NCBI GenBank assembly: GCA_002839765.1
Contig: PGYR01000014.1
Span: forward strand, 1 to 64,000
DNA: 64,000 bases
Reading direction: 5' to 3'
DNA from: Ignavibacteriae bacterium HGW-Ignavibacteriae-4
GTDB lineage: Bacteria; Bacteroidota; Ignavibacteria; Kapaibacteriales; UBA2268
The notes under the pieces: generated by a model
Told to the model about the DNA's origin: nothing
The model's database searches: none
Seen by the model: only the letters and a program-made list of their open reading frames with translations
Translations under genes and position numbers: made by a program
Shown: positions 2,635-2,783 of the stretch, in pieces
Layout of the letters: each line of letters begins with the position of its first letter
Position numbering within the stretch: the first letter of the stretch is position 1

Positions 2635-2783
2635 GGAGGTTCGAGTCCTCTCCTTATATGTCACATAAGGTAACTCAATCGGTAGAGTAATAGGCAACCA
2701 GGTTCGATTCCTGACATTCTATACGAATGTAGCTTATGGAAAGCACTGAATTTCGGTTTCAGGTCACAGAAGTTACCACTTCT
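2635..2783 (+). ncRNA. Tandem permuted tRNA-like RNA modules
   Basis: Module A: T arm GGAGG/CCTCT with loop TTCGAGT (2635-2651); a closed acceptor-like hairpin CCTTAT/ATAAGG with a 7-base loop (2652-2670); T and A at tRNA positions 8 and 9; D arm ACTC/GAGT with loop AATCGGTA (2673-2688), which has A14, G18, G19 and A21. Module B: T arm CAGG/CCTG with loop TTCGATT (2699-2713); hairpin ACATTC/GAATGT with loop TATAC (2714-2730); D arm GCTT/AAGC (2732-2744); perfect anticodon-like arm CTGAA/TTCAG with loop TTTCGGT (2746-2762, anticodon-like TCG); then hairpin AGAAG/CTTCT (2768-2783). The arm order is permuted relative to tRNA, so the 3' acceptor strand precedes the 5' strand. Bacterial Y RNAs of the YrlA type also mimic tRNA, and SPFH/Band-7 RNA-repair loci are reported to carry a tRNA-like RNA. 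Transcription and processing are inferred. Confidence 0.75.

Follow-up and report, generated by a model that had tools for sequence, protein, structure and literature searches.

A two-module RNA element between a regulator gene and a slipin gene

We analyzed a 64,000-nt stretch of DNA (the window; positions 1 to 64,000 of contig PGYR01000014.1) from Ignavibacteriae bacterium HGW-Ignavibacteriae-4, a member of the Bacteroidota. At 2626-2762 the window contains an RNA element of two tRNA-like modules, A and B, flanked by the genes for a WYL regulator and for a slipin of the SPFH/Band-7 family. A sequence-only reading of this DNA had described the modules as circularly permuted tRNA-like structures in which a T arm, an acceptor hairpin and a D arm follow one another and the acceptor end is sealed. 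For comparison with relatives we used a covariance model, R1, built from 43 Bacteroidota modules with those of the window left out. The two genes and the parts of the modules are as follows.

1174-2238, minus strand: WYL-WCX transcription regulator, divergent (Pfam WYL 1.4e-12, WCX 1.9e-4)
2626-2629, plus strand: module A anticodon stem, 5' strand CTAT, pairing with ATAG at 2690-2693 (covariation; minimum free energy fold)
2635-2651, plus strand: module A T arm, GGAGG TTCGAGT CCTCT (R1 match 2635-2688, 48.6 bits; sub-threshold YrlA match)
2652-2670, plus strand: module A sealed acceptor hairpin, CCTTAT ATGTCAC ATAAGG, 7-nt loop (6 of 6 pairs covary in relatives)
2671-2672, plus strand: module A U8-A9
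2673-2688, plus strand: module A D arm, ACTC AATCGGTA GAGT, loop AATCGGTA (covarying D pairs; Levitt-type pair)
2671-2693, plus strand: segment ending with module A A26 and the anticodon stem 3' strand ATAG at 2690-2693 (covariation)
2698-2714, plus strand: module B T arm, loop TTCGATT, four good pairs (R1 match 2698-2744, 23.3 bits)
2714/2715-2730, plus strand: module B sealed acceptor hairpin, ACATTC TATAC GAATGT, 5-nt loop
2732-2744, plus strand: module B short D arm, GCT TATGGAA AGC
3058-4155, plus strand: SPFH/Band-7 slipin, 365 amino acids (Pfam Band_7 1.4e-30)

The sequence of 2635-2688 was confirmed, and the bases and arm order of module A are those originally described, with U8, A9, A14, G18, G19, A21, T54, T55, C56 and A58 all in place. 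Module B has the same arm order, as had been claimed, but it is a weaker copy with a D stem of only 3 bp. The proposal that free ends lie at the anticodon side did not hold, the RNA running on past the modules in both the 5' and the 3' direction. The element itself is real; what its first description lacked was the anticodon stem formed by 2626-2629 and 2690-2693, a pseudoknot at 2768-2795, and the context of regulator and slipin. We conclude that this small-RNA gene of two permuted tRNA look-alikes is real and widely conserved.

Conservation and covariation of the permuted modules

The full-length slipin subfamily was found in 20 of 395 genomes in a sample of the phylum and in 18 of 295 in a second sample, giving 30 genomes in total with that of the window. 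These slipins are related over their full length at 40-58% identity, and the closest solved structure to the slipin protein is that of stomatin. All 29 of the other slipin-bearing Bacteroidota genomes carry T-acceptor-D modules upstream of the slipin gene, the module at L040 being weak. The order of WYL gene, RNA and slipin gene is kept in a near-identical strain (L017) and in Candidatus Kapaibacterium (L018), in which the slipin is 58% and the WYL protein 60% identical to those of the window; the WYL gene is placed divergently, as in the window, at L018, L027, L037 and L040. Further relatives of the slipin occur in E. coli, Citrobacter, Burkholderia, Photobacterium and Subdoligranulum. Viral contigs contained no slipin, phage records giving no more than HflK-like matches.

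Chance does not account for the modules, in agreement with the sequence-only reading. Modules A and B each outscored all 200 of their own shuffles. Among 61 slipin-linked T arms, selected irrespective of the sequence downstream, 53 were followed by an acceptor hairpin and a D arm, compared to 1.6 expected from dinucleotide shuffles. Acceptor stems are diverse, 53 distinct ones occurring among the 57 modules collected. In the alignment of the 43 modules used for R1, 95.1% of the pair cells hold standard pairs, and the covariation score was 0.787, compared to 0.215 for partner shuffles and 0.08-0.17 for slid partners; every one of the six acceptor pairs and four D pairs shows changes on both sides in some sequences. 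Because these 43 modules were picked for pairing, the shuffle test on the 61 T arms is a fairer measure than the covariation score. The sequence-only reading had named a lack of covariation and a better competing fold as outcomes that would refute it, and neither was observed. Covariation in homologues is strong for all three stems (acceptor, T and D), and we found no fold of lower energy that ignores the three arms. Folded without constraint, 2620-2700 and 2690-2770 give minimum free energy structures that have all three arms, the D arm of module B being slightly shifted, and the free fold of 2620-2700 is the module A cloverleaf including its anticodon stem.

The best match to R1 in the whole 3.4-Mb genome is module A, module B giving a weaker score. 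Across the phylum, R1 is unspecific when used alone, ordinary tandem tRNA genes reaching approximately 53 bits in many genomes, and the identification therefore relies on slipin linkage and short acceptor loops. That R1 also matches tandem tRNA genes, and that tRNA genes lie near some slipin loci, are points in favor of the modules being remnants of tandem tRNA genes, arisen by decay or by chance. The acceptor loops of 3-11 nt, the covarying hairpins, the covariation of a tertiary pair (see below) and the occurrence of the modules at one conserved type of locus all argue to the contrary. ARAGORN found no tRNA at the module region of the window, and RF00005 did not exceed its cut-off there; a scan with Rfam at gathering score across the window gave a single ordinary tRNA-Gly and nothing else. 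The remnant explanation is refuted as far as sequence allows, and we give it next to no weight.

The tertiary pair of tRNA that we tested joins D-loop base 15 to base 48, which immediately precedes the T stem. Neither base is used by the descriptor with which the modules were found. Within modules, G15-C48 or A15-U48 was present in 47 of 51 cases (Fisher p=4e-12). When base 15 was compared with base 48 of the next module, the pair was found in 9 of 22 cases (p=0.64), whereas the same 22 modules have it internally in 22 of 22. Sequence relatedness inflates these p-values but hardly accounts for the contrast within and between modules. In the window, module A has the Levitt-type pair A15-U48 (U48 being position 2634), and module B has U15-A48. 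This covariation within, but not between, modules indicates that the T and D arms dock with each other inside every permuted module. Docking of the Bacteroidota modules in linear order was ruled out by the same test. The permuted-tRNA fold with a sealed acceptor end is thus supported by both covariation and the tertiary pair, the latter being strong sequence evidence that selection maintains an inside-out tRNA fold in tandem arrays beyond the Ro60-YrlA system.

Additional structures flank the modules.

2541-2557, plus strand: conserved 5' hairpin GTGAT-TCTGTAT-ATCAC (aligns in 13 sequences, where it is mostly paired; variable positions show pair changes)
2746-2762, plus strand: anticodon-like arm CTGAA TTTCGGT TTCAG, after module B
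2768-2795, plus strand: H-type pseudoknot with S1 AGAAG/CTTCT, S2 TACC/GGTA and A-rich third loop CTAAAAAA

The anticodon stem of the first module varies across loci as CTAT/ATAG, CTGT/ACAG, CTTG/CAAG, TTGG/CCAA and TCGG/CCGA, and none of 1000 partner shuffles reached the covariation of the module A stem. In most loci the last D arm is followed by a covarying 5-bp arm with a 7-nt loop. The pseudoknot was missed by RNAalifold on the 3' domain, and a pseudoknot descriptor was therefore applied and compared with two nulls; its mean score over 29 loci was 21.3, compared to 8.9 ± 1.1 for half-swapped chimeras. The long-range 5' helix of Flavobacteria-type loci had no support in the window. At 2878-2888, on the 3' side of the pseudoknot, TGGATACCGTT is identical in the window and in L018.

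Red algae and archaea have permuted tRNA genes that also place the 3' half before the 5' half and are processed to working tRNAs. If the modules were genes of this type, the anticodon-side ends would be ligated and the acceptor loop excised. The order of 3' half, short spacer and 5' half is shared, and RNA ligases are found in related operons. Unlike in the algal and archaeal genes, the acceptor of the window element forms a tight hairpin that covaries; most acceptor loops are just 3-7 nt long, with scant room for processing, there is neither a CCA nor a normal 7-bp acceptor, and an RNA ligase was not found in the genome of the window. At the Burkholderia locus L063, a relative with linear order, a GAAA tetraloop hairpin replaces the anticodon arm. 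We consider it very improbable that the element yields a working tRNA.

Linear order is not confined to L063. Units in normal tRNA order lie upstream of slipin in Burkholderia (L063, L082 and L084, with L083 less clear) and in Photobacterium (L062); ARAGORN calls some of them tRNAs, and several of the anticodons are malformed. The RNAs of E. coli and Citrobacter keep the T arm and acceptor hairpin but have no clear D arm. In a slipin tree the proteins of Burkholderia and Photobacterium fall with those of E. coli and Citrobacter into a proteobacterial group separate from the Bacteroidota. Topology at equivalent slipin loci differs, being linear in Burkholderia and Photobacterium and permuted in the Bacteroidota.

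Relation to YrlA and to RNA-repair operons

A likeness to YrlA-type Y RNAs had been suggested from the sequence, and it extends to the order of the arms: in the RF02553 consensus, too, an outer stem encloses a T arm, an acceptor hairpin and a D arm in that order. Circular permutation itself is already known from YrlA, the bacterial Y RNA 6CU1 being permuted relative to tRNA by 3D superposition (PMC11472068, PMC13355120). A permissive Rfam scan gave a YrlA match of 33.2 bits at 2627-2692 in the window and 47.0 bits in L018, both below the gathering cut-off of 69. These sub-threshold scores and the shared permuted module are points in favor of a degenerate YrlA locus from which Ro60 has been lost. 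Elsewhere in the phylum, however, loci found by R1 beside RtcB-like and Ro60-like proteins have YrlA scores of 70-73 bits. The match in the window covers positions 23-85 of the 114 in the model, leaving the basal Ro60-holding stem unmatched, and the genome has no match to TROVE/Ro60 (PF05731), although a control genome did; slipin linkage and the pseudoknot are conserved instead. A degenerate YrlA locus is accordingly disfavored and appears very improbable.

The window RNA and YrlA share the permuted order closed at the anticodon side, an association with RNA-repair operons, and, in one relative, a homologous regulator. That relative is L019, from the same taxonomic order as the window's genome: its homologous WYL gene (42% identity) diverges from RtcB, after which come a TROVE/Ro60 protein and a YrlA-like module, these proteins being assigned by reading their sequences rather than by Pfam. 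In contrast to YrlA, the window RNA has two modules rather than one, an anticodon arm and a pseudoknot, lacks the basal Ro60-binding stem and Ro60, has slipin as its partner, and falls below the Rfam cut-off. Its topology is that of YrlA, yet it is not a YrlA and is best filed with the SPFH-linked tRNA-like RNAs. The comparison joins YrlA with the slipin-linked RNAs in a single regulated group of tRNA mimics. Two other YrlA-like loci were observed: L110 has five YrlA-like matches in a row at 1309-2066, two of them over the Rfam cut-off, and L117 has a match resembling a Deinococcus Y RNA at 1312-1440 (39.6 bits, sub-cut-off) next to a YrlA-like module that is flanked by TROVE-like and RtcB-like proteins.

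Burroughs and Aravind (2016) reportedly described, among RNA-repair systems, SPFH/Band-7 modules that include a tRNA-like RNA of a new kind. The window shares with those systems the slipin gene and the tRNA-like RNA, relatives add RtcB, RlaP or Rnl-Pnkp, and the window unit is without a ligase. In assignments made by Pfam and gene clustering, L018 has slipin followed by an Rnl1-type RNA ligase and PNKP; slipin occurs with RtcB at L046, L049, L050 and L054-L056; Photobacterium L062 has RtcR, slipin and RtcB; and RlaP lies after or near slipin in E. coli (L061), Citrobacter (L044) and Subdoligranulum (L045). A repair ligase or nucleotidyltransferase is part of the operon at L018, L046, L049, L050, L054-L056, L061 and L062, but none of those searched for was found in the window or its genome. 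RtcB is encoded in 27 of the 29 slipin-bearing Bacteroidota genomes, a raw count to be read without a base rate for comparison.

The RtcR-sigma54 rtcBA and rsr-yrl operon of Salmonella and E. coli is likewise a stress-regulated RNA-repair module with a tRNA-mimic RNA. As in RtcR systems, sigma-54-like sites precede the RNAs of E. coli, Citrobacter and Burkholderia, the E. coli and Citrobacter loci have RlaP, and RtcR is adjacent in Citrobacter and Photobacterium. The regulator of the window is WYL rather than RtcR, with no ligase or cyclase. Most of the slipin unit is carried by 1617 of 5426 complete E. coli genomes (approximately 30%). At L061, the slipin-RlaP unit with its sigma-54-like site and tRNA-like hairpin RNA (5000-7454) is annotated merely as a slipin family protein and a nucleotidyltransferase.

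Candidate operators and a proposed role in tRNA damage

Two palindromes lie between the WYL gene and the RNA.

2290-2308, no strand: TACGCA-N7-TGCGTA, probable WYL operator 1
2415-2433, no strand: TACGTA-N7-TGCGTA, probable operator 2, 125 bp from operator 1

These are the only two sites in the 64-kb window that match TACGYA-N7-TGCGTA, with 0.19 matches expected. Upstream of slipin in the loci of relatives, the palindrome with the exact 7-nt spacing gave 25 matches, compared to 1.25 expected, and paired palindromes are also present in L018 and L037 with nearly the same spacing as in the window. This conservation suggests that the WYL regulator binds at 2290 and 2415 and thereby controls the unit.

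We propose, with a probability of roughly 0.6, that the locus encodes a structured RNA of permuted tRNA mimics that is induced together with slipin and serves as a ribonucleoprotein scaffold or decoy in tRNA damage. The region 2541-2795, whose outer limits are uncertain, would be a structured non-coding RNA, made either as the extended leader of slipin mRNA or on its own from one shared promoter. Each of the two modules folds to a tRNA-like L which the chain enters and leaves at the anticodon side. Because its acceptor end is sealed, module A cannot be charged, and its shape is that of a tRNA opened (nicked) in the anticodon loop; given its position between a regulator of stress type and a gene for a membrane scaffold known from RNA-repair operons, the RNA is probably a broken-tRNA mimic. 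Most likely the WYL regulator would sense damage to nucleic acids or translation and switch on the RNA and slipin through the paired palindromes. The RNA and oligomeric slipin would then form a ribonucleoprotein that captures tRNA-acting enzymes; in relatives the associated set includes RtcB, RlaP, or Pnkp together with an Rnl1-type ligase. Precedents come from RNA-repair operons under RtcR control, which react to tRNA fragments (PMC7790460), and from YrlA, a substrate of DusA and TruB with dihydrouridine and pseudouridine in its loops that tethers PNPase (PMC8394870); they make the proposal plausible, not proven.

The structure of the RNA, its conservation and its gene context are direct observations; three other observations weigh against the proposed function. 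The folding energy is unexceptional, with z of -0.13 for 2600-2800 and of +0.14 and -1.68 for the two modules. The gene downstream of slipin in the window is trpS, which is not a repair gene. The genome of the window has no match to any of the four RNA-ligase and repair families examined, RtcB, PF09414 (RNA_ligase), RlaP and PF09511 (for PF09511 the control was silent as well), so that a role in repair would here be without its enzyme, and any scaffold or decoy function of the RNA would concern other proteins that act on tRNA.

A potential concern is whether the RNA acts in trans at all. A tRNA-like 5' untranslated region could control translation of slipin or stability of its transcript in cis, through tRNA-acting proteins. 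The modules lie upstream of slipin on the same strand at every locus, approximately 190-670 nt ahead of the start codon, and thrS operators and T-boxes are established tRNA mimics in leaders (cited in PMC8394870). The number of modules, however, ranges from one to three and their distance to slipin is very variable, which is unusual in a cis switch, and the related YrlA module acts in trans with Ro60 and PNPase (PMC8394870). A purely cis-acting leader is therefore unlikely, though it is the alternative to the scaffold or decoy that we take most seriously.

A broader view of the scaffold or decoy is possible but doubtful: the mimic of an anticodon-cut tRNA would be a swappable part, with Ro60-YrlA and slipin as alternative scaffolds under one regulator lineage. 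In some lineages, among them this genome, the slipin form would have lost its ligases and would be a stand-alone decoy against enzymes that cut tRNA, and the arm order would have switched between linear and permuted within one RNA lineage. In the literature searched, to which the full text of Burroughs and Aravind (2016) did not belong, we found no description of a tandem permuted array, 15-48 covariation, the pseudoknot or the paired operators, nor of a swap of Ro60-YrlA and slipin under one regulator lineage or of a ligase-less example. The role of tRNA mimics in RNA repair was left open by earlier work (PMC7790460); with relatives in approximately 30% of complete E. coli genomes, the question is testable in that species.

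Two other features of the window were observed. Beside the WYL gene, 201-1157 encodes a protein of the metallo-beta-lactamase fold that is PqqB-like but far below the equivalog cut-off. At 9081-10963, going by a reading of the protein sequences, a likely C5 DNA methyltransferase is encoded and, after it, a possible restriction endonuclease.
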